Shown here in pieces: positions 1-9,541 of a stretch of 15,531 nt of DNA. Origin of the DNA: Comamonadaceae bacterium (GTDB taxonomy: Bacteria > Pseudomonadota > Gammaproteobacteria > Burkholderiales > Burkholderiaceae_C); NCBI GenBank assembly GCA_947483455.1, contig CANKNK010000007.1, forward strand, positions 1 to 15,531, in the 5' to 3' direction. A program made the position numbers and the translations under genes. The notes beneath the pieces were generated by a model. It searched no databases and was not told where the DNA came from. It saw nothing but the letters and a program-made list of their open reading frames with translations. Within the stretch, counting starts at the first letter, position 1. Each line of letters opens with the position of its first letter.

Positions 1-1
1 C

Positions 2-310
2 AAAGACATCATCATCTCTGGCGGCGAGAACATCAGCTCGCTGGAAGTGGAAGATGCGCTCTACCGCCACAGCGCCGTCATGGCCTGCGCGGTGGTCGCC
101 AAGCCCGACGATAAATGGGGCGAAACACCGGTCGCCTATGTGGAGTTGAAAGAAGGCGCCAGCGTCAGCGCCGCAGACTTGCTGGCGCATTGCAAATCCC
201 TGCTAGCGGCCTACAAAGTGCCACGCGATTTTCGGTTCGAGGCTATTCCCAAAACCTCTACCGGCAAGATCCAAAAATTTGAGTTGCGCAAGCGCGCGGG
301 TTTGGCATGA
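2..310 (+). CDS. Acyl-CoA synthetase, C-terminal fragment (5' truncated by window edge)
   Basis: This is the mobile C-terminal domain of an AMP-forming acyl-CoA ligase of the ANL superfamily, which makes acyl-CoA from a carboxylic acid, ATP and CoA. The frame is open from base 2 and the true start lies left of the window. A GTG at 47 is internal, because the family's hinge and A8 motif (KDIIISGGENISSLEVEDAL) is read just before and across it. The A10-type motif KTSTGKIQKFELR near the end carries the catalytic lysine (K in GKIQ). About 102 residues are present, whereas whole enzymes have 500-550. Similarity in style is to short/medium-chain ligases (FadD3- or DmdB-like), but the substrate cannot be read from this part. 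The stop overlaps the next start (ATGA, 307-310), so translational coupling with the downstream adenylase is likely. Confidence 0.9.
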   Translation, partial: KDIIISGGENISSLEVEDALYRHSAVMACAVVAKPDDKWGETPVAYVELKEGASVSAADLLAHCKSLLAAYKVPRDFRFEAIPKTSTGKIQKFELRKRAGLA

Positions 311-1887
311 GCCTGAGCGCGCTGCTGTTTGATGCGGCTAGCAGCCACCATGATCGCTATGCATTACACCTAGGCGATGCGCGCACGACGTATGCGGACC
401 TTACGCGCAGCGCCCTTGCCATCGCCGCCCGCTTGCAGGCGCTGGGCGCGCAGCGCGAGGCGGTCGGCATTGTGGGTCAGCGCAAGTACGGCAGTTATGC
501 GGGGGTGCTGGGTATTGTGTACGCGGCTTGCCATTACGTGCCGCTCAAGGCCAAAGCCCCGCCCGATAAAACCATTGCGCTGCTGCGCGCCGCGAACATC
601 CGTTATTTGGTGGGCGACGCGGAGGACTTGCGCCAGCTGCAAGCGCAGTTACAGGGCACCGGGCAAGGCGAGCGTATTCAAGCCTACATCGCGCCAGACA
701 GCGAATGCCTGGGTGCTGGTCCATGGGAGGGTGTCGGCGCAAAGTCGATAGCGCCACTGGGCGCGCCGCTGGCTTGTGACGCTGATGCTTTGGCCTACAT
801 CCTGTTCACCTCCGGCTCATCGGGTACACCCAAAGGCGTGAAGGTCAGCCATGCGAATGTCTTGGCCTATCTGCGCGCTATCCATAGCATGTGGAATTTG
901 GAGCCAGGTTACCGAGCTTCGCAGTTTCACGATTTCTCATTCGACCCGTCAGTGTCCGATTTGTTCACCACCTGGTCGCTAGGCGGCGAGTTGTGCGTGG
1001 TGCCCGAAGCTGAGTTGATCGCCCCGGCGCATTTCATACGCCGCAGCAATTTGCAGGTCTGGAGTTCGGTGCCCTCCATCGGCACGCTTATGCATAAGTT
1101 GGGCATGCTCAAAGCCGATAGCTTTCCCACACTGCGCATCAGCCGCTTTGCTGGCGAACCCTTGGCCCGTCGCATGGTGAAGGCCTGGCAAGCGGCAGCG
1201 CCGGCCAGCACGGTGGAGAACCACTATGGCCCCACCGAGGCGACGATCGACGTGGCGCGCCATATCTATTTGCCTATTGAAGCAGAATTGCCTTTTGCGA
1301 ATGACATCGTGCCCATCGGCAGCGCGTTTCCCGGCATGCAGACTTGCATCCTGGACGAACAGCGTCAGCCCGTGCCCCAGGGCGTCACCGGGCAGATTGC
1401 CTTCAAAGGCCCGCAGCTTTCGCAAGGCTATTTGAACGATCCGGAGAAAACAGACGAGGTGTTCGTGCGACTGGACTGGGACGCTAGCGGTGCCACCTGG
1501 TATTTGTCAGGCGACGCGGGCTTTGTGAATCCGCAAGGCCAGATTGAGTGCCTGGGCCGCATGGACAGCCGAATCAAAGTGGCGGGGCGGCGGGTGGAAA
1601 TCGGCGAAATCGAAGCGGCGCTTGCCAGCTTTGCGCCGCTCAGCGATGTAGTAGTCGTGGCCGTTAAAGATGCGCAAGGCTTGGTCACCGAATTGGTGGG
1701 CTTTACGACTGGGCAAGTAAGCGCGCAAGACTTGGCGGACATCAAAAAAGCCAGCGCCCGCAGCCTGGACGCGGTGTTTTTTCCCAAGCGCATCGTGGCC
1801 TTGGCGCAATTGCCTTATGCCGTCAGCGGCAAAGTGGACCGGCGGGCTTTGCTGGAGATGGCACGCCCACCGGCTACCAAAGTCTGA
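307..1887 (+). CDS. Stand-alone amino-acid adenylation enzyme (DltA / NRPS A-domain-like)
   Basis: This 526-residue AMP-binding enzyme most resembles D-alanine:carrier-protein ligase (DltA) and NRPS adenylation domains. It would activate a carboxylate as an aminoacyl-AMP and load it onto a carrier-protein thiol. Core motifs appear in order: A3 P-loop LFTSGSSGTPKG (166-177), A4 FDPSVSD (212-218), A5 NHYGPTE (305-311), A7 YLSGD (399-403), A8 GRMDSRIKVAGRRVEIGEIE (417-436) and A10 SGKVDRR with catalytic K509. D213 matches the aspartate that binds the substrate amino group in NRPS domains, so an amino acid is the likely substrate. Which amino acid is unknown: the pocket sequence DPSVS does not match the DltA sequence I recall. 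There are no condensation, carrier or thioesterase domains, so a carrier in trans is needed. One is encoded 76 bp downstream on the opposite strand. The start overlaps the stop of the upstream ligase. Confidence 0.88.
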   Translation: MSLSALLFDAASSHHDRYALHLGDARTTYADLTRSALAIAARLQALGAQREAVGIVGQRKYGSYAGVLGIVYAACHYVPLKAKAPPDKTIALLRAANIRYLVGDAEDLRQLQAQLQGTGQGERIQAYIAPDSECLGAGPWEGVGAKSIAPLGAPLACDADALAYILFTSGSSGTPKGVKVSHANVLAYLRAIHSMWNLEPGYRASQFHDFSFDPSVSDLFTTWSLGGELCVVPEAELIAPAHFIRRSNLQVWSSVPSIGTLMHKLGMLKADSFPTLRISRFAGEPLARRMVKAWQAAAPASTVENHYGPTEATIDVARHIYLPIEAELPFANDIVPIGSAFPGMQTCILDEQRQPVPQGVTGQIAFKGPQLSQGYLNDPEKTDEVFVRLDWDASGATWYLSGDAGFVNPQGQIECLGRMDSRIKVAGRRVEIGEIEAALASFAPLSDVVVVAVKDAQGLVTELVGFTTGQVSAQDLADIKKASARSLDAVFFPKRIVALAQLPYAVSGKVDRRALLEMARPPATKV

Positions 1888-1963
1888 GTAGCGTTGGCGC
1901 CAGGTCGCGGTGCATGACAGCACTTGCTGCTTTATGGCGCTATCAGGCAAGAGCCTTAAAGCG

Positions 1964-2227
1964 TTACCGCGTTGTGGCGCGGCTATGTTCTGAAATGAAA
2001 GCGGCGATATCCGCAACCGTATCGAGCAGCGGCGCTTCAAAATGCACGCTGGAAAAATCGATCTGGTAGTTTTCCTCTAGATGCATGACCAGTTGCATGA
2101 GCGAAAAAGAATCGATGCGACCACTGAGAAACAGCGAGTCGGTGTCCGAAAATTCCTGCGTGTCCATGGCCTGCGTTAGCAATTGCTGCAAATAGGGGCG
2201 CAGGCTTTCGCGGATGTCAGTGCTCAT
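1964..2227 (-). CDS. Acyl/aminoacyl carrier protein (DltC-like)
   Basis: This 87-residue acidic, helical protein has the size of DltC, ACP and stand-alone PCP proteins. The motif SGRIDSFSLMQLVMHLE contains DS-F, where Ser40 is the predicted 4'-phosphopantetheine attachment site. A hydrophobic helix II and a typical end (TVADIAAFI) follow. It would carry an acyl or aminoacyl group as a thioester in the cytosol. Its ATG overlaps the TGA of the membrane-protein gene (ATGA read on the minus strand, 2227-2224), so the two are almost surely co-translated. It converges on the adenylase gene that probably loads it. No holo-ACP synthase is visible, so a housekeeping phosphopantetheinyl transferase must act on it. 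It could instead carry a fatty acyl chain, since its family alone does not settle the cargo. Confidence 0.85.
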   Translation of the reverse strand: MSTDIRESLRPYLQQLLTQAMDTQEFSDTDSLFLSGRIDSFSLMQLVMHLEENYQIDFSSVHFEAPLLDTVADIAAFISEHSRATTR

Positions 2228-3666
2228 AGCGGTAATCCAAAAAGATAAAAAAGAAATTGCATGCGTTCGGCCAGGCTGTGGCTGCGGGTTTCATCACCGA
2301 AGATTTGTAAGAGGCTCACAAAGCCCCAAATCAACACAAAGGCTTGGATACGCCCGGCCACGGTGCTAGAGGGACGATGCCCCGCGCTCATGCGCAATTG
2401 CGAAATACCAATGGCGCAGGCCAACACCACACAATAAAAGGCATAGCTGCTAAAGCTGGTAAATAGCTCCACCAAACCCATGTCTGCGGCCAGGTCGATA
2501 TCGCGCAAAAAGTGATAGACCATATTGCCCACACCAGCGGCCATAAAGGTGGCGAAAAACATGCGCACGCGCGGATGCTTTTTGAAATAGCGTAAAAAAC
2601 TGGGCGTGAAAAACAAGTCCACCATCAACTCTTTGAAGTAGTAAAGAATACGATTGAAATAATCCACCATGGTGCGCGACTCCAGCGGACGCCAGCTGCT
2701 GCGCGGCAGTCGAATGCCGGCAAAGCGTGCGGTGGCGATCACCATATGGCCCCACAAGCCGAACCACAGGGCAAAGTCTAGTTGGGACCATACCAAGCTC
2801 AGTGCCAGCCAGGGGCGCGACGAGGGGTGGTGCGCCAAAAAGGCGCTGATCTCGCTTTCCACACTGCGCACCTGCAGCACGGTTTCAAACACATAGCTCA
2901 GTACCGTATCCAGCCCATATAGGCAGATGGCCCAGACCAGCAATTTGAAGCCTTTGATTTGCGTCACTGCCAGCGCCTGCGTGCTGCTGGCACGCGCTTT
3001 GCGCAATAGCGCAGCGCCTTTGCCATAGGGCAGGGTGGTAGAGCCCCAAAACGGATGCAGCATGCCCAGTTGCACCGCATCGCTGCTACGCGCCTTGGCG
3101 CTTTGGTCCAAAAGCGCAAAGGCTAAAAACCAGACGTAGGCGCAATAGGTCACCAACATGGACCAGGTCAGTACCCGCGCCATGCCGTGCAAGAGCCCGC
3201 CGCAGCTCGCCAGCAGCAAGGCAAAGGCCAGCGACATCAAAACCCACACCGGCCTGCGCGCAGCCATGGATTGCGGGTGGCGCCGCACATACACCAGCGC
3301 CAACCAGGCCAGCAACACAAACACGCCATAGATGAATAAAGAAATTTCCCATGCCGGTACGTCCTGGATGTGCTCTTGCGCCATGACCTTGGCAACGTCA
3401 CTATTGAAGTAATTGGACGAACTGGCGATACGGTAAATCCCCAGCGACTGGGTAAACACCAACAGCGTGAGGTTTTGGTGCCTTGGCATATAGGCAAACG
3501 TAAATGCCAGGCCGAGCAGCAAAAGCGCCTTCACGATGTCTGCGCTCTCGATGCTAAACAGCAGTACCGCCAACACAAACAGCAGTGCCCGTCCGCGCCA
3601 GCCCTGCAAACCCGCGATGATTTTTTCGTTCTTGTCTAAGGACGAGAACTGTTCTAACAAATACAT
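2224..3666 (-). CDS. Polytopic membrane protein, MBOAT-like candidate acyltransferase
   Basis: This 480-residue protein has roughly ten hydrophobic segments from residue 28 to 480 and no cleavable signal peptide. I cannot name the family with certainty. Two polar, conserved-looking blocks stand out: HPFWGSTTLPYGKG (204-217), and Y336-FNR followed by ILYYFKELMVDLFFTPSFLRYF. About 46 residues after YFNR comes H385 in GNMVYH. In DltB and other MBOAT enzymes an F-W-x-R-W-H block is followed at a similar distance by the catalytic histidine, so an MBOAT-like O-acyltransferase is my inference. The first MBOAT histidine appears replaced by leucine (L341). The ATGA overlap with the carrier gene implies a shared role: the protein probably moves an acyl or aminoacyl group from carrier to an envelope acceptor. 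No clear Shine-Dalgarno precedes the ATG. An alternative reading is an unrelated membrane protein of the same conserved neighbourhood. Confidence 0.72.
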   Translation of the reverse strand: MYLLEQFSSLDKNEKIIAGLQGWRGRALLFVLAVLLFSIESADIVKALLLLGLAFTFAYMPRHQNLTLLVFTQSLGIYRIASSSNYFNSDVAKVMAQEHIQDVPAWEISLFIYGVFVLLAWLALVYVRRHPQSMAARRPVWVLMSLAFALLLASCGGLLHGMARVLTWSMLVTYCAYVWFLAFALLDQSAKARSSDAVQLGMLHPFWGSTTLPYGKGAALLRKARASSTQALAVTQIKGFKLLVWAICLYGLDTVLSYVFETVLQVRSVESEISAFLAHHPSSRPWLALSLVWSQLDFALWFGLWGHMVIATARFAGIRLPRSSWRPLESRTMVDYFNRILYYFKELMVDLFFTPSFLRYFKKHPRVRMFFATFMAAGVGNMVYHFLRDIDLAADMGLVELFTSFSSYAFYCVVLACAIGISQLRMSAGHRPSSTVAGRIQAFVLIWGFVSLLQIFGDETRSHSLAERMQFLFYLFGLPL

Positions 3667-3756
3667 TATTTAGGGAGTGGCTGTTGTAGCCGTGGTTTTT
3701 CGCATCTGCTCACTATGCATGCCTGCAATAGGTGAATTGCGTAAATTGTTGAAATT

Positions 3757-3762
3757 ATTATA
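3757..3762 (-). promoter_or_regulatory. Candidate -10 box for the membrane protein/carrier operon
   Basis: The 189-bp spacer 3667-3855 has an unusually A+T-rich core at about 3740-3772. Read on the minus strand it contains a perfect TATAAT at 3762-3757, which would place a transcript start near 3750 and give a leader of about 84 nt. No good TTGACA lies 16-18 bp upstream, so this rests mainly on the -10 match and the composition. A short dyad GGCT-N5-AGCC lies in the presumed leader. Nothing else in the spacer looks functional. Confidence 0.35.
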
Positions 3763-3855
3763 TTTTTTAGTTTCAGTTGGGTGGCAGTGGGTCGCCTTGG
3801 CGACGATGCTTGGTTTTAGTCAACACAAAGTAGCCGCTCTTTGGTGGGGCAGGCC

Positions 3856-4797
3856 CTAGCCTGTGGTTGCGTCCTTGGGGACGGGGGCTTCTTGCGCCAA
3901 CGGTTTACGCCGATTCACCAGCGAAATCCCCACAAACACCATCGCCAGTGCCCCCACCAAGGAAAGCGTAATGTCCTCGCCCAGCCAGAGTGCACCAAAG
4001 AGGAGCGCGAACAGCGGCGTAGAGAAAGCGAAAGCACCGATTTTGCTGGCCGGGTAACGACTGAGCAGCCACATCCAAGACAGGTAGCTGGCAAAGGCGC
4101 CGACCAGGGTTTGCAGGAGCAGCGAGCCCATGGCGAAGTGGCTGAAGTTCCAGGGCCAGGACCAGACTTCGCCTAGGTTCCAAGACAACAGGGGCAGCAC
4201 CACCGCGCTAGCAGCCACTTGGTAGAACAGCATTTTTTCAGCACCCACGCGGCTGAGCACGGTGGTGCGGATAGTGACCGTGGTCAGCGCCCAGGCAATG
4301 CCGCCACCCACGCCCAGCAAATCGCCCCAATGTTGCAGCGGCGTCTGGCCGCCCACAAAGCCTTCGCGCAGCGTGAAGGCCACCGCGCAAAACGCAAGCA
4401 AAAGGCCCCACCATTGCACTGCGCGCAGACGCTCCGAGGGCACAAACCAATGCAGCACCAATGCGGCCCACAAGGGCGAGGTGTATAAAAACACCGTCAG
4501 CCGCGAAGCAGCGCTGTATTGCAAGCCGCTAAACAAGCAGAAAAATTCCATGGAGAATAAAAAGCCGGCCAAAAGGCCAGGCCACAGGCTGCCGTCACGC
4601 TCAAAAAGCGCAATGCCGCGCCAGCGGCACCACAGCCACAAGACCACCGTGGTACCCACAAAGCGCACACCGGCCTGAAATACAGGTGGCAAGTCGGCCA
4701 GCGTGGCTTTGACCAGCACTTGCTGAAAGCCCCAGAAGGCACAGCACACTATCAAGAGGCCCATGGCAAAAGCGTCCAGGTTTTCCTTGCGATCCAT
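3856..4797 (-). CDS. EamA/DMT-family transporter
   Basis: This 313-residue protein has about ten transmembrane helices in two EamA repeats (about residues 12-143 and 157-293), the hallmark of the drug/metabolite transporter superfamily. Typical elements are the N-terminal CCAFWGFQQVLVKATL, the YTSPLWAALVLHWF segment ending the first repeat, and FSTPLFALLFGALWLGED in the second. The protein sits in the inner membrane. Relatives export amino acids, metabolites or drugs, and the substrate cannot be deduced here. The gene follows the flavin reductase after only 20 bp on the same strand, so it is probably the last gene of the aap transcription unit, although no clear Shine-Dalgarno is seen. An efflux protein behind an amino-acid uptake operon could relieve amino-acid overload, but that is speculative. 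Confidence 0.85.
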   Translation of the reverse strand: MDRKENLDAFAMGLLIVCCAFWGFQQVLVKATLADLPPVFQAGVRFVGTTVVLWLWCRWRGIALFERDGSLWPGLLAGFLFSMEFFCLFSGLQYSAASRLTVFLYTSPLWAALVLHWFVPSERLRAVQWWGLLLAFCAVAFTLREGFVGGQTPLQHWGDLLGVGGGIAWALTTVTIRTTVLSRVGAEKMLFYQVAASAVVLPLLSWNLGEVWSWPWNFSHFAMGSLLLQTLVGAFASYLSWMWLLSRYPASKIGAFAFSTPLFALLFGALWLGEDITLSLVGALAMVFVGISLVNRRKPLAQEAPVPKDATTG

Positions 4798-4817
4798 AGC
4801 GAAAAAACTGGAGGTGC

Positions 4818-5351
4818 TTAACGCAGGCCGCCGCTGTAAAACTGGCTGGCGTGATAGACCAGTGGCGTGGCGGCGTCGCGATGGGTGCAGCCCTCGACTT
4901 CACCCACAAAAATCACATGGTCCCCTTCGGCATAGCGGCTGCGGTTAAAACAGGCAAAGGTGGCGACTGCGCCATCGATCAAAGGCAGCCCATAGGCGCC
5001 GCTGTGCCAGTCCACGCCTGCAAAGCGGTCTATGTCTTTGGTGGCGAATTGCTTGGCCAGCGCTTGGTGTTCGGCACCCAGTACGTTGATGGCGTAATGC
5101 GTGCAGTTGCGCAGCACGTCCATGGACGCCGAGCGCAGGCCCAGACTCCAAAGCACCAAGGGCGGGTCTAGCGAGACCGCGTTAAACGAGTTCACCGTCA
5201 GGCCCACCAGGGCGCCGCTGGCGCTGCGCGCGGTCACCACGGTGATACCGGTGGCGAACTGGCCCAAGGCTTGGCGAAACTCGGTTTGGCTGAAGGCGGG
5301 CGCGCTGGCAGTGGGTGCGTCTAGCTCCTCGGTGCGGGGGATGTGGTTCAA
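4818..5351 (-). CDS. Flavin reductase-like FMN-binding protein
   Basis: This 177-residue single-domain protein belongs to the flavin reductase-like family (HpaC/RutF type). It would use NAD(P)H to reduce FMN or FAD and supply reduced flavin to a partner monooxygenase. Family motifs are FRQALGQFATGITVVTA (25-41), GLTVNSFNAVSLDPPL (50-65) and GDHVIFVGEVE (143-153). The ligand-contact S/T-N-S-F turn and the GDH motif are both intact. The only usable start is TTG at 5351, since no other initiator codon precedes the fold. It lies one base after the aapP stop, which suggests termination-reinitiation coupling. No partner oxygenase is encoded nearby. It might instead be a flavin-binding oxidoreductase of unassigned role. 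Confidence 0.88.
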   Translation of the reverse strand: MNHIPRTEELDAPTASAPAFSQTEFRQALGQFATGITVVTARSASGALVGLTVNSFNAVSLDPPLVLWSLGLRSASMDVLRNCTHYAINVLGAEHQALAKQFATKDIDRFAGVDWHSGAYGLPLIDGAVATFACFNRSRYAEGDHVIFVGEVEGCTHRDAATPLVYHASQFYSGGLR

Positions 5352-5352
5352 A

Positions 5353-6096
5353 TCAATGGCCTAATATTTTGGACAGGAAGTCGCGGCTGCGCTCACTTTG
5401 CGGGTTGTTGAAAAACGCCTCGGGCGTGTTTTGTTCCACGATCTGCCCCTCGTCCATAAAGATAACCCGATCGGCCACCGCCTTGGCAAAACCCATTTCA
5501 TGTGTCACGCACACCATGGTGATGCCTTGCTCAGCCATCTCGATCATGACATCGAGCACTTCCTTGATCATCTCCGGATCCAGCGCCGAGGTCGGCTCGT
5601 CAAACAGCATGATTTTAGGCCTCAGGCACAAAGCACGCGCAATCGCCACCCTTTGCTGCTGCCCGCCGCTCAATTGCAGCGGGTATTTGAGCGCTTGCTC
5701 GGCAATGCGCACGCGGCGCAATTGCTCCATGGCTTTTTCTTCGGCTTCTTTTTTGGGCATACGGCCCACCCACATAGGCGAGAGCGTCAAGTTCTCCAGC
5801 ACCGTGAGGTGCGGGAACAAATTGAACTGCTGAAACACCATGCCGACTTTTTTGCGTACATCGTCAATCGCTTTGAGGTCGTCGCTAATTTCCACGCCAT
5901 CAACGACCAAGCGGCCTTGCTGATGCTCTTCCAGGCGGTTGATGCAACGAATCAGCGTGGACTTGCCCGAGCCCGAGGGCCCGCAAACCACGATGCGCTC
6001 ACCGGCGCCCACTTGCAAGTCGATGTCGCGCAGAACATGGAAGTCGTTGCCATACCATTTGTTGACTTTGTCGAAGCTGATGATGGGCTCGGTCAT
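5353..6096 (-). CDS. aapP: General L-amino acid ABC transporter, ATP-binding protein AapP
   Basis: This is the cytosolic ATPase of a polar amino-acid ABC importer, 247 residues from the chosen start. Walker A is GPSGSGKST (39-47), followed by the Q-loop ([10 protein letters not shown]), the ABC signature [15 protein letters not shown] (142-156), Walker [14 protein letters not shown] (161-173) and the H-loop H199 in THEMGFA. All catalytic residues are intact. The frame stays open 25 codons further upstream into aapM, but the ATG at 6096 is preferred. It follows AAGGA by 5 nt and begins the canonical N-terminus ([16 protein letters not shown]), and it avoids overlap with aapM. It is the fourth gene of aapJQMP. 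GlnQ/GltL-type assignment would fit the domain alone, but the paired long permeases indicate Aap. Confidence 0.95.
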
Positions 6097-6101
6097 GGCT
6101 T

Positions 6102-6112
6102 TCCTTAACGCT
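6102..6112 (-). promoter_or_regulatory. Stop/ribosome-site overlap at aapM-aapP junction
   Basis: On the minus strand AGCGTTAAGGA contains the last sense codon and TAA stop of aapM, with AAGGA serving as the aapP Shine-Dalgarno 5 nt before ATG 6096. The same 11-mer occurs at the aapQ-aapM junction. The arrangement favours coupled translation and decides the aapP start. Confidence 0.7.
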
Positions 6113-7199
6113 GTTTGCTTTTGTTCACTTGCGCTTCGATCCATTGGCTGTAAAGTGACATCGCATAGCAAAACACAAAATAAATCAGGGCGATAAACAA
6201 ATAGCCCTCGATACGGAAAGGGCGCCAGTCGGCTTCAGAATTCATCGCCATGCCCATAGCGCCGGTCAGTTCGTACAAGCTGACGATCGCTACCAGCGAC
6301 GTGTCTTTGAAGGTGGAAATAAAGTTATTCATGAGGCCCGGCACCACCATGGCCAGCGCCTGCGGCAGCACAACCATGCGTTGGGTTTGCCAGTAGCTCA
6401 GGCCCAGTGTGGCGGCCGCTTCGATCTGCCCTTTGGGGATGGCTTGCAAGCCGCCGCGAATCACCTCGGCCATATAGGCCGCGGCAAACAAGGTAATGCC
6501 AGCCAGCACGCGGATCAGCACGTCGATGTTGAAACCTTGCGGCATCAAGAGCGGAAACATAAACGAAGCCATAAACAGCACCGAGATCAGCGGTACGCCG
6601 CGTATCAACTCCACATAGACGGTACACAGGCTGCGAATCGCCGGCATAGCCGAGCGCCGTCCCAGCGCAATGCAGACCGCAATCGGGAAGGCCATCACCA
6701 TAGACAGCGAGGCCAGCAAAATCGTCAACGGCAGGCCGCTCCACAAATCAGTTTCTACAAAACGCAGACCGGCAAAGCCGCCGCGCATCAGCGCCAGGTA
6801 CACCACCAGCACCCCCAGCCACAGTGCCACCAGCCAAGGTCGCCAAAAAGCGCGGGTACAGCTGGCCAAAATCAGGCCCAGCAACATGGCGGTACACAGC
6901 AAGGCCCGCCAGTGTTCTTCGTGTGGATAGCGGCCAAACAAAATAAAGCGGAACTTCTCGCGCACCACCGCCCAGCAAGCGCCGCTGGCTGCGTGGCAAG
7001 TTTCGTAATTGCCGTACCACACGGAATTCGTAACAGCCCACTGAAATAGGCGCGGCAACAGCCATAGCAAAATCAGACCGATCAGCAGCGTGCCGGCGCT
7101 GGTTCTCCAGTCGTGGAATAAATTGGCCTTGCACCAGGCCAGCGGCCCACTGTTGGACTGCGGGGCCGGACGCGGGGCGATGGCGTTAAACGTGGACAT
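6105..7199 (-). CDS. aapM: General L-amino acid ABC transporter permease AapM
   Basis: This 364-residue inner-membrane permease belongs to the HisM/AapM group of polar amino-acid importers. The N-terminal part holds several hydrophobic helices ([29 protein letters not shown] and others) that extend it beyond the usual 220-residue GlnP-type permease, as is typical for AapM. The transport domain begins near the segment [20 protein letters not shown]. The EAA loop that docks on the ATPase is visible as [25 protein letters not shown], with the conserved E-A-A and G. It should pair with AapQ as a heterodimer and with AapP below. Translation starts at ATG 7199, 13 nt after the aapQ stop, with an AAGGA ribosome site. 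No frameshift or missing motif is seen. Confidence 0.94.
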
Positions 7200-7209
7200 A
7201 GGTGCTGTG

Positions 7210-7220
7210 TCCTTAACGCT
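7210..7220 (-). promoter_or_regulatory. Stop/ribosome-site overlap at aapQ-aapM junction
   Basis: The second copy of AGCGTTAAGGA on the minus strand holds the aapQ CGT-TAA end and the AAGGA ribosome site, 10 nt before the aapM ATG. The identical 11-mer is at the aapM-aapP junction. Confidence 0.65.
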
Positions 7221-8391
7221 CTTGGATCGCGGCGCGCGCGTTGTACCAGTTCATGAGCAAAGAGGTGAGCAGCGAAGTTGTCAGGTAGACCAACATGATG
7301 AGTGCAATGCATTCCACTGCGCGGCCGGTTTGGTTGATGGCGGTGTTGGCAATAGAGACCACGTCCGGGTAGCCGATGGCCACAGCCAGCGAAGAATTTT
7401 TGGTCAGATTCAGGTACTGGTTGGTCATGGGCGGAATGATCACGCGCAGCGCCTGGGGCAACATCACCAGGCGCATGCTCTGGCCTTGCGAGAGGCCGAG
7501 CGCGCTGGCCGCCTCGGCCTGGCCCTGCGACACTGACTGGATGCCGCCGCGCACCACTTCGGCCACAAAGGCGGCGGTGTAGATGGTCAGACCGACCAAC
7601 AGCGCCAGAAATTCGGGTGTCAGCGCGCCGCCGTTTTCAATCGCAAATTCGCCTTGGATCGGGGCGTTGATTTCGGTAGGTGCGCCGCCGAGCAACCACG
7701 CGAGGAAGGTCGCTAAAAATACCCATACCAGTGGCGCCCAAAACATACTGTGCGGCTGCCCCGTCGCTTCAAAACGGCGCCGTGCACGGCCACGCCACAG
7801 CCAGCCCGCACACAGGCCCGCTAGCAGCCCCCCAGCAGCCCACACATGGCCGCTGGCCCACACGGGGATTGGGAAATTCAGCCCGCCTTTGCTCAGAAAT
7901 AGGGGGCCTAGCGTCCAGGGCTGCGTGGCATCGGGCAGCACTTCGGTAAAAAACAAATACCACATCAGCAATTGCAGCAGCAGCGGGATATTGCGAAACA
8001 ACTCTACGTAAATGCGGCACAGACCGCGCACCAACGCGTTGCGCGAGAAGCGCCCAATGCCGAGCAGCGTGCCCAGCAGCGTGGTCAGCACCATGCCCAA
8101 AAGCGCGACGCGCAGTGTGTTGGTGACGCCCACCAGATAGGCCTGCAAATACGACTCCCCCGAGTCAAAGGCATACAGACTCTCGCCGATATCAAAGCCC
8201 GCCGTCCCCAGCAAAAATCCAAAACCGCTTTGGATGCCGCGCTGGCGCATATTGGTGGCGGTGTTGTGCGCCAAAAACCAGACGACGAGCGCGATCACTC
8301 CAACCGCCAGCACTTGGTACACCAGCGCGCGAAAGGCTTGGCTGCGCCAGGACCAGCGGTTTTTCGCGGGGGGTGTGGATGCTGCGCTCAT
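7213..8391 (-). CDS. aapQ: General L-amino acid ABC transporter permease AapQ
   Basis: This 392-residue inner-membrane permease is the first of the two Aap permeases. An N-terminal helix (FRALVYQVLAVGVIALVVWF) is followed by a periplasmic stretch with NTATNMRQRGIQSGFGFL, characteristic of AapQ/YhdX proteins. The transport domain begins at YLVGVTNTLRVALLGMVL. An insert of further helices in the middle explains the extra length over ordinary GlnP permeases. The EAA loop reads QAEAASALGLSQGQSMRLVMLPQAL and is intact. The gene lies 115 bp downstream of aapJ, past a terminator-like hairpin, so its transcription probably depends on read-through or on a second promoter in that spacer. No convincing Shine-Dalgarno is visible before ATG 8391. 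Confidence 0.94.
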   Translation of the reverse strand: MSAASTPPAKNRWSWRSQAFRALVYQVLAVGVIALVVWFLAHNTATNMRQRGIQSGFGFLLGTAGFDIGESLYAFDSGESYLQAYLVGVTNTLRVALLGMVLTTLLGTLLGIGRFSRNALVRGLCRIYVELFRNIPLLLQLLMWYLFFTEVLPDATQPWTLGPLFLSKGGLNFPIPVWASGHVWAAGGLLAGLCAGWLWRGRARRRFEATGQPHSMFWAPLVWVFLATFLAWLLGGAPTEINAPIQGEFAIENGGALTPEFLALLVGLTIYTAAFVAEVVRGGIQSVSQGQAEAASALGLSQGQSMRLVMLPQALRVIIPPMTNQYLNLTKNSSLAVAIGYPDVVSIANTAINQTGRAVECIALIMLVYLTTSLLTSLLMNWYNARAAIQER

Positions 8392-8435
8392 GCAAAGATG
8401 CGGTGCTTGTTAGTCGGTAGTGCAAGCGCCGGTAC

Positions 8436-8472
8436 AGAAAAAGGGCAGTGCAACAGGATGTGCAACTGCCCT
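8436..8472 (-). terminator. Intrinsic terminator or attenuator between aapJ and aapQ
   Basis: On the minus strand an 8-bp stem AGGGCAGT/ACTGCCCT (8472-8465 with 8449-8442) is extended by three further pairs (TGC/GCA) past a one-base bulge. It closes an 8-nt loop and is followed directly by a run of five T (8442-8438). This is the classical shape of a Rho-independent terminator, 35 nt beyond the aapJ stop. Because aapQMP continue on the same strand, it probably ends most transcripts after aapJ and lets a fraction through. It could instead act as a 3' stabilising hairpin. Confidence 0.8.
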
Positions 8473-8506
8473 CGTGGCTGCGCCTGGCCGCTCGCGGCCC
8501 GCTGGT

Positions 8507-9541
8507 TTAGCGGATGGGCGGGGCGTACTGGATGCCGCCTTTGTTCCACAAATTATTTAAGCCGCGCGGCAATTGCAGCGCTGAATTGGGGCCGACATTG
8601 CGCTCAAAGATTTCGCCGTAGTTGCCGGTCGCTTTGATAGCATTGGCCAGCCACTCTTTTTCTAGACCCAGCAGTTTGCCGGTGTCTTCGGTGGTGCCCA
8701 GAATGCGTCCGACAATGGGGTCTTTGCTAGTGGCCTTGAGCGCTTCCAGATTGGCTTGCGTGACACCGTTTTCTTCCGCTTCGAGCAGGCCGTAAATCGT
8801 CCACTTCACAATCGCAGTCCACTCGTCGTCGCCACGGCGCACCATCGGGCCCAGGGGTTCTTTGGAAATCAGCTCCGGCAGGATCATGTGGTCGGCGGGG
8901 TTCTTGGCGGACTTGTTGCGCACCGATGCCAGGCCGGACGCATCCGTGGTGTAGGCGATGCAGCGGCCTGAGAAGTAAGCGCCTTCCACGGCGTCGAGTT
9001 TTTCAAACACCACGGGTTTGATATTCAAAGCATTGGCTTTAGAAAAGTCGGTCAGATTTTTCTCGGTGGTGGTGCCCGATTGCACGCACACGGTTTGGCC
9101 CTTGAGCTGCTTGGCGCTTTTGATCTTGCTCTTGACGGGCACCATAAAGCCCTGGCCGTCGTAATAGACCACCGCGGTTTGGCTCAGGCCAATCGATGCA
9201 TCGCGGGTGAGGGTGAAGGTGGTGTTGCGGGAAAGTACGTCGACTTCGCCAGACTGCACGGCGGCAAAACGGGCTTGCGCGGTCAGCGGTACGAATTTGA
9301 CTTTCTCCGGATCACCCAGGGTGGCGGCGGCCACGGCGCGGCAGATGTCCGCGTCGATGCCGGACCATTTGCCGTTCGAGTCGGCCGCGCTAAAACCCGC
9401 CAAACCGGTGTGTACCCCGCAAATGACCTGGCCGCGCGCCTTGATGGAATCTAGGGTTTTCCCTGCATGTGCAGGTGCGCCCATGAGGAGGCTTGCGGAG
9501 GTCAAAACAGCACCGAGGCCGTACAGGGGATTGAATTGCAT
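8507..9541 (-). CDS. aapJ: General L-amino acid ABC transporter, periplasmic binding protein AapJ
   Basis: This 344-residue solute-binding protein of the polar amino-acid family (SBP_bac_3) captures L-amino acids in the periplasm and delivers them to AapQM. The N-terminus is a signal peptide with a hydrophobic core (LGAVLTSASLLMG) and a probable cleavage after AHA at residue 26. Its n-region has no lysine or arginine, which is unusual, yet no other in-frame start exists before a stop codon upstream. The mature N-terminus, KTLDSIKARGQVICGVHTG, is typical of AapJ. Four cysteines (C41, C67, C152, C194) could form two disulfides. The Shine-Dalgarno GGAG lies 8 nt before the ATG, inside a perfect 10-bp palindrome. 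The gene is first in the minus-strand unit and followed by a terminator-like hairpin. Confidence 0.95.
   Translation of the reverse strand: MQFNPLYGLGAVLTSASLLMGAPAHAGKTLDSIKARGQVICGVHTGLAGFSAADSNGKWSGIDADICRAVAAATLGDPEKVKFVPLTAQARFAAVQSGEVDVLSRNTTFTLTRDASIGLSQTAVVYYDGQGFMVPVKSKIKSAKQLKGQTVCVQSGTTTEKNLTDFSKANALNIKPVVFEKLDAVEGAYFSGRCIAYTTDASGLASVRNKSAKNPADHMILPELISKEPLGPMVRRGDDEWTAIVKWTIYGLLEAEENGVTQANLEALKATSKDPIVGRILGTTEDTGKLLGLEKEWLANAIKATGNYGEIFERNVGPNSALQLPRGLNNLWNKGGIQYAPPIR

Follow-up and report, generated by a model that had tools for sequence, protein, structure and literature searches.

A conserved adenylase, carrier protein and divergent DltB-fold membrane protein as a candidate aminoacyltransferase system

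What is the function of a stand-alone amino-acid adenylase that lies beside a carrier protein and a polytopic membrane protein? The question is raised by a 15,531-nucleotide (nt) stretch of DNA (hereafter the window), the entire contig CANKNK010000007.1 of a Comamonadaceae metagenome-assembled genome (MAG; GCA_947483455.1, 58.6% complete; G000:C7 in our numbering, where G numbers denote genomes and L numbers loci). The genes are abbreviated ADEN (adenylase; 307..1887, plus strand, 526 amino acids (aa)), ACP (carrier protein; 1964..2227, minus strand, 87 aa) and MEMB (membrane protein; 2224..3666, minus strand, 480 aa, a putative DltB-fold MBOAT-like transferase). An earlier note had called these three open reading frames (ORFs) at the same positions, which is confirmed, and had reported that the last two overlap by ATGA; direct reading shows this stop/start overlap between the MEMB and ACP genes at 2224..2227 (minus strand). 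ADEN and ACP are convergent, with stops 76 nt apart. On balance, we favour the interpretation that this cassette is a carrier-protein-dependent aminoacyltransferase system in which MEMB would transfer an aminoacyl group directly to a membrane acceptor.

The three genes are found together in most relatives. Among 61 related genomes, including the window's own, six have a MEMB match (G032 by a fragment only). When the species genomes of GTDB were scanned with an alignment of MEMB, 44 loci were recovered; these are a sample of relatives sharing one of two short peptides and are partly dependent (L060 and L070 come from one MAG). By profile searches, ADEN and ACP lie within 4 kb of MEMB, with ADEN co-directional with MEMB, in 30 of these 44 loci; two more, L040 and L042, both close kin of the window, have all three genes with ADEN reversed. 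The linkage of the adenylase with the carrier/membrane pair, on which the earlier note had staked its proposal beforehand, is therefore kept, and conservation of all three genes in 32/44 loci rejects chance neighbourhood. Many incomplete loci lie at contig edges. MEMB and ACP without ADEN are seen in six of the 44, and in all six MEMB begins three bases or fewer from the contig end; in G016 and G005, too, MEMB begins at a contig edge, so that a lack of ADEN should not be read from these two genomes. L073 has ADEN without ACP, with MEMB close to the edge, and L083 is without a full MEMB. L041, L046 and L070, near contig edges, have neither ADEN nor ACP; L041 is G028, whose ADEN and ACP are at the end of another contig (L011), and in L046 only 192 bases precede MEMB. 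At L082 9851-10282 (L015, G032), only a remnant of the MEMB core is left (143 residues), with neither ACP nor ADEN.

Most commonly the genes run co-directionally as ADEN-MEMB-ACP, often overlapping by four bases; a few loci have ADEN-ACP-MEMB. The hosts include Accumulibacter, Azonexus, Dechloromonas, Noviherbaspirillum, Comamonadaceae, Nitrospirae-labelled MAGs and Bradyrhizobium. Since most relatives have one operon, the convergent layout, correctly described for the window but seen elsewhere only in its closest relatives, looks derived. In an all-versus-all ORF comparison of 48 loci (including copies, e.g. L017 and L055), MEMB is present in 48, ACP in 34 and an ADEN-like ORF in 35, the one in L041 being a different synthetase. 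The next recurrent ORF groups, judged by printed examples, are other-frame ORFs of the same three genes, followed by groups of at most eight loci, and no constant neighbour is seen among the recurrent groups. Among ten neighbours, called by a crude script and scanned with Pfam, are methyltransferases, two CoA-transferases, a kinase, a protease, an amidase, an aminotransferase, a desaturase and a pyridoxal phosphate (PLP)-dependent decarboxylase. Because only MEMB, ADEN and ACP recur widely, the trio is taken as the unit. An acyl-CoA synthetase gene (2-310) upstream of ADEN, whose end overlaps ADEN by ATGA, is also found in G002 and L040; it is not counted in the unit because an ABC-ATPase gene takes its place in G028.

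MEMB and ADEN also vary together. Their distances are correlated (Mantel r 0.873, n=24, 0/9999 permutations as high; 0.816, n=22, without Bradyrhizobium), a correlation to which common species history contributes. Three genomes, G091, G136 and G176, have a diverged MEMB, 31-33% identical to that of the window, with no ADEN or ACP nearby. However, in a search of 300 genomes of the order, with at most four candidates scored per genome, the sequences most similar to the window's ADEN, its own genome aside, come from these same three genomes (36-39% identity), and each adjoins an ACP elsewhere in the genome. All three genes of the window are under purifying selection relative to same-genus G028, with ratios of non-synonymous to synonymous substitution of 0.136 (ADEN), 0.063 (ACP) and 0.082 (MEMB, first 423 codons), in a comparison where synonymous sites are close to saturation.

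No match to MEMB was found in Pfam or NCBIfam. However, a profile-profile comparison with MBOAT proteins (ten AlgI-type rows) gives an expectation value of 2.7e-10, which is optimistic given how those rows were chosen, and the best solved-structure match is DltB; by fold, the protein is an MBOAT, and one of the DltB type. A histidine, His385 (codon 2512-2514, minus strand), is invariant in 41/41 MEMB sequences and is the candidate for the catalytic histidine of the MBOAT core helix; Asn381, Arg339, Lys345 and Glu346 are further invariant residues. By fold, remote sequence similarity and histidine, MEMB is thus a very divergent DltB-fold MBOAT. The description of a membrane protein far from DltB, standing in its place, has to be amended accordingly, and the idea of a novel non-DltB fold is rejected by the profile match to MBOAT and the structural match to DltB. 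A tblastn search of plasmids with a Noviherbaspirillum MEMB homologue hit two genes that carry the name MBOAT, over 18-19% of the query (E 3e-4 and 8e-4); the same plasmid search with the window's MEMB and with a Bradyrhizobium MEMB found nothing. Of 19 genomes, 12 lack any PF03062 match. In the Accumulibacter genome of L044, two adjoining PF03062 matches with one in-frame TGA each (G438:C21:43866-44578) reflect either an error of assembly or a classical MBOAT gene that is broken.

ADEN matches AMP-binding (Pfam, E 5.3e-61) and AA-adenyl-dom (NCBIfam, E 6.9e-94, 315 bits, slightly below the cut-off of 317.4). The next family is the DltA equivalog, with E 3.7e-73 and 246.8 bits, far below its cut-off of 559.85. 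Asp213 (codon 943-945) and Lys509 (codon 1831-1833, both plus strand) are invariant in 29/29 aligned adenylases and are the equivalents of Asp235 and Lys517 of GrsA. An amino-group anchor and a catalytic lysine fit amino-acid activation, and support the earlier assignment as an amino-acid adenylase. In a 58-row tree, 24 linked ADEN sequences, those of G091, G136 and G176 and one of G291 form a 28-row clade (support 100/100), separate from non-ribosomal peptide synthetase (NRPS) domains and from the adenylases of a fusion system described below. Pocket residues, read by eye from the alignment with GrsA numbering, are D-P-S-S-R-A-H-I-D-K in the window's clade, most commonly D-F-H-N-V-G-L-V-F-K among other linked ADEN and D-L-L-Y-L-A-L-V-C-K in the fusion-system adenylases (rows vary). 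Substrate prediction from these residues gave no confident amino acid; however, they differ enough among the groups for different amino acids to be expected.

ACP has a PP-binding match (Pfam, E 9.8e-8), and its phosphopantetheine site, Asp39-Ser40 in GRIDSFSL (Ser codon 2108-2110, minus strand), is invariant in 4/4 aligned sequences. One further PP-binding match is present in the incomplete genome of the window. Against the DltC equivalog, ACP scores 23.9 bits (cut-off 68). The best NCBIfam match is named ACP_for_OlsHI, at 39.1 bits against a cut-off of 130; the fusion-system carrier scores 127.4 against the same family. A link to ornithine-lipid OlsHI was considered and rejected; OlsH and OlsI are GH3-like and an alpha/beta-hydrolase, respectively, in the portions of the OlsHI paper at hand (PMC12493201). 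Because those portions feature neither of the terms MBOAT and acyl carrier protein (PMC12493201), the family name gives no clear hint.

In the Dlt pathway, as excerpts of a recent paper describe it, DltB passes D-Ala to the tyrosine of an FxYxxF motif in DltX, and then the SGNH protein DltD takes over (PMC12148441). This motif is absent from the last 25 residues of all 41 MEMB sequences and present there in 10/10 AlgI-type controls; it occurs elsewhere in the protein in 5/41, including the window's MEMB (residue 111). A search of 47 loci, rather than whole genomes, for a DltX-like small ORF gave one with the motif, which is unconvincing, being not hydrophobic and inside the MEMB gene span. The statement that DltD is missing has been extended: PF04914 was detected in 0/19 genomes (18 with MEMB, one with a fusion, and the window's own incomplete MAG among them), with positive controls in Bacillus subtilis and Lactococcus lactis. 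No SGNH group was seen among the recurrent neighbours, some of which are without identification, and a search with ALGX (PF16822) was positive in no control and so uninformative. NRPS condensation domains (PF00668) were also sought, with no match in 14/17 genomes, including the window's own and G028, a match below the cut-off in one and matches above it in two. ADEN thus does not serve an NRPS in most of the searched hosts.

Building on the observed genes, linkage, fold relation, conserved residues and missing shuttle and DltD, we infer a path of activation, loading, docking and direct transfer. Judging from its conserved residues, ADEN would use ATP to activate an amino acid and load it as a thioester onto holo-ACP. 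By the fold and the Dlt precedent, aminoacyl-ACP would dock at the cytoplasmic side of MEMB, which offers one invariant histidine. Because MEMB lacks the C-terminal tyrosine shuttle and neither a DltX-like nor a DltD partner was detected, MEMB would then hand the aminoacyl group directly to an acceptor whose hydroxyl or amine can get to the active site. If there is no relay, the acceptor has to enter the MBOAT itself, as in MBOATs that acylate lipids or proteins. This favours a lipid, and a membrane lipid or lipid-linked molecule would be simplest, but a metabolite, a protein or a lipid-linked sugar could also serve. Since the trio has no constant neighbour, the acceptor is probably something that the hosts already make. 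The more specific proposal, that MEMB founds a family of bacterial MBOATs in which the amino acid goes from the carrier to a membrane lipid in one direct step and differs from clade to clade, is put forward tentatively, as a possibility that we would not yet bet on.

Several observations weigh against this interpretation. The absence of a shuttle and SGNH partner is negative evidence, and an unlinked, unrelated partner might have escaped it. The ten AlgI-type rows behind the profile match were chosen from weak hits of the MEMB profile. His385 aligns with the MBOAT histidine only in the realigned hhalign path, by our own column count, and the Viterbi path ends earlier. The histidine beside the classical MBOAT FWRRW motif is Leu341 in the window and a histidine in 23/41 members. 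Pfam finds no MBOAT match in any of the 41 in single-sequence scans; this is a matter of sensitivity, and the MBOAT status therefore rests on profile and fold. As for linkage, L070 is a real exception, as it lacks ACP and the 3.6 kb upstream of its MEMB contain no ADEN; G291 carries a member of the ADEN clade and no MEMB match, which speaks against a strict co-occurrence rule; and two Bradyrhizobium adenylases fall outside the main ADEN clade.

Other explanations of the same genes have to be considered. A full Dlt-type relay, in which MEMB would pass the group to an unlinked small tyrosine protein, then to an unlinked SGNH protein and finally to an outer-envelope polymer, gains some credit from DltB being the best solved match, and from a system in the same order that fuses a divergent MBOAT domain to GDSL/SGNH and is linked to ACP and ADEN, which places SGNH chemistry near in evolution. 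However, the missing C-terminal motif in 41 MEMB, the lack of a convincing DltX-like ORF in 47 loci and of DltD in 19 genomes, and the failure to see an SGNH group among the recurrent neighbours, as far as these were identified, make such a relay unlikely. It is also conceivable, but quite improbable, that the trio acylates or aminoacylates a secreted or diffusible metabolite, as AerO, AerP and AerQ of the varlaxin pathway may. The A domain, carrier and MBOAT of that pathway share the three-part logic in the available part of the review (PMC10143770), and a methyltransferase lies beside or is fused to ADEN in Bradyrhizobium loci; however, the likeness is one of description rather than sequence, the trio has no constant biosynthetic neighbours, and condensation domains are unmatched in 14/17 genomes. 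The least credible explanation, and one that we regard as very improbable, is that ADEN activates a hydroxy, aryl or fatty acid, so that the module is an acyl rather than aminoacyl transferase. The window's specificity residues are not known to match any specificity code, and the overlapping acyl-CoA synthetase gene would suit such a role, but that gene is replaced in G028, the amino-group anchor is invariant, and the closest curated families are amino-acid adenylation and DltA. Direct transfer by MEMB is therefore retained as the preferred interpretation.

How, then, does this system compare with those already described? Like the Gram-positive Dlt pathway (DltA, DltC, DltB, DltX, DltD), it combines an adenylase and a carrier with an MBOAT of DltB fold in which one histidine is invariant, and domains, fold and linkage thus support the front half of the DltA-DltC-DltB logic put forward in the earlier note. 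It is not a Dlt system, though like the first half of one, because scores are far under the DltA and DltC cut-offs and neither DltX, FxYxxF nor DltD was found; the hosts, moreover, are Gram-negative. The Bordetella dra locus, compared by description only, is similar in the D-Ala decoration of an envelope component and in belonging to a Burkholderiales genus; unlike the cassette, it includes a DltD according to the earlier note. In AlmEFG of Vibrio cholerae, a stand-alone adenylase and carrier feed an envelope aminoacyltransferase without DltD, as here, but AlmG, compared by description only, is a lysophospholipid-acyltransferase-type enzyme, whereas MEMB has the MBOAT fold. The MBOAT fold and remote sequence similarity are shared with the Gram-negative PatAB/AlgI-type MBOAT-SGNH pairs, for which excerpts report acyl-CoA donors and a C-terminal FxYxxF shuttle (PMC12148441); MEMB, in contrast, has a dedicated ACP and no C-terminal FxYxxF. 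In varlaxin, the AerO A domain recognises Hpaa, the AerP peptidyl carrier protein loads it and AerQ is an MBOAT, the role of which is worded as glycosylation of Hpaa in the portion of the review at hand (PMC10143770); in our own reading of that portion, AerQ transfers Hpaa. Set beside the cassette by description only, this system differs in acting on a natural product, in the acid activated and in lying within an NRPS pathway.

A sister arrangement within the order is the MBOAT-GDSL fusion, found with ACP and ADEN at L084 5190-9592, L085 5718-10156, L086 5308-9843 and L127 2-4078. The fusion proteins (842-891 aa in L084-L086) share the three-part gene group and a divergent MBOAT domain, which hhalign matches to MEMB up to MEMB residue 373 (94.8%, E 4.9e-8), but have a C-terminal GDSL/SGNH domain and a separate adenylase clade. 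No FxYxxF was found in the three that were checked, and an AlphaFold model was too poor to use (pLDDT 42.8, 3 rows). It is possible that the fusion is a one-piece DltB-DltD-like system in Burkholderiales.

A number of loci have additional features. In the Accumulibacter loci L043, L044, L045 and L047, a single ACP is flanked by two MEMB genes in tandem (ADEN-MEMB1-ACP-MEMB2), which suggests one loaded carrier serving two acceptors. In Bradyrhizobium, an S-adenosylmethionine (SAM) methyltransferase gene overlaps ADEN by four bases (L076 7120-9893, with the same layout at L077 6757-9581) or is fused to it (L080 6719-9820), and the amino acid or product may therefore be methylated. An unusual amino acid might be made by a PLP-dependent decarboxylase encoded directly after ACP in Accumulibacter (L052 10098-11525) and by a class III aminotransferase encoded ahead of ADEN in Dechloromonas (L055 6830-8239). 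Convergent genes for a DUF3047 protein, a protein of unknown type (about 235 aa) and one resembling hydantoinase A follow ACP in L064, L065 (4702-8310) and L069, and L071 (11691-14185) has the same set by gene sizes. In the window itself, an EamA transporter, a flavin reductase and a polar amino-acid ABC transporter are encoded upstream of MEMB on the same strand (3856-9541, minus), a block retained in G028 and, judged by gene sizes, L040; the ABC permeases are long (364 and 392 aa versus 212-238 in family models). Scans of window positions 1-5000 found no promoter, and 11 terminators against a mean of 8.2 in shuffles, roughly shuffle level; Rfam and tandem-repeat scans had no match.

In the open-licence papers searched, no report was found of a DltD-less, shuttle-less DltABC-like system with this MBOAT family. 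The analysis gives a likely function to a family of membrane proteins that has no annotation and is missed by library profiles. If the preferred interpretation is true, the front half, DltA-DltC-DltB, is able to operate in the absence of the Dlt and PatAB delivery machinery; if the more specific lipid proposal also holds, there would be an aminoacyl-lipid route that uses neither tRNA, unlike MprF-type enzymes, nor the tyrosine-shuttle/SGNH relay of Dlt. The cassette hints that environmental bacteria carry an aminoacyl decoration so far unrecognised, including Accumulibacter and Bradyrhizobium, for which lipidomics could provide a test in culturable hosts such as Noviherbaspirillum, Dechloromonas and Bradyrhizobium.

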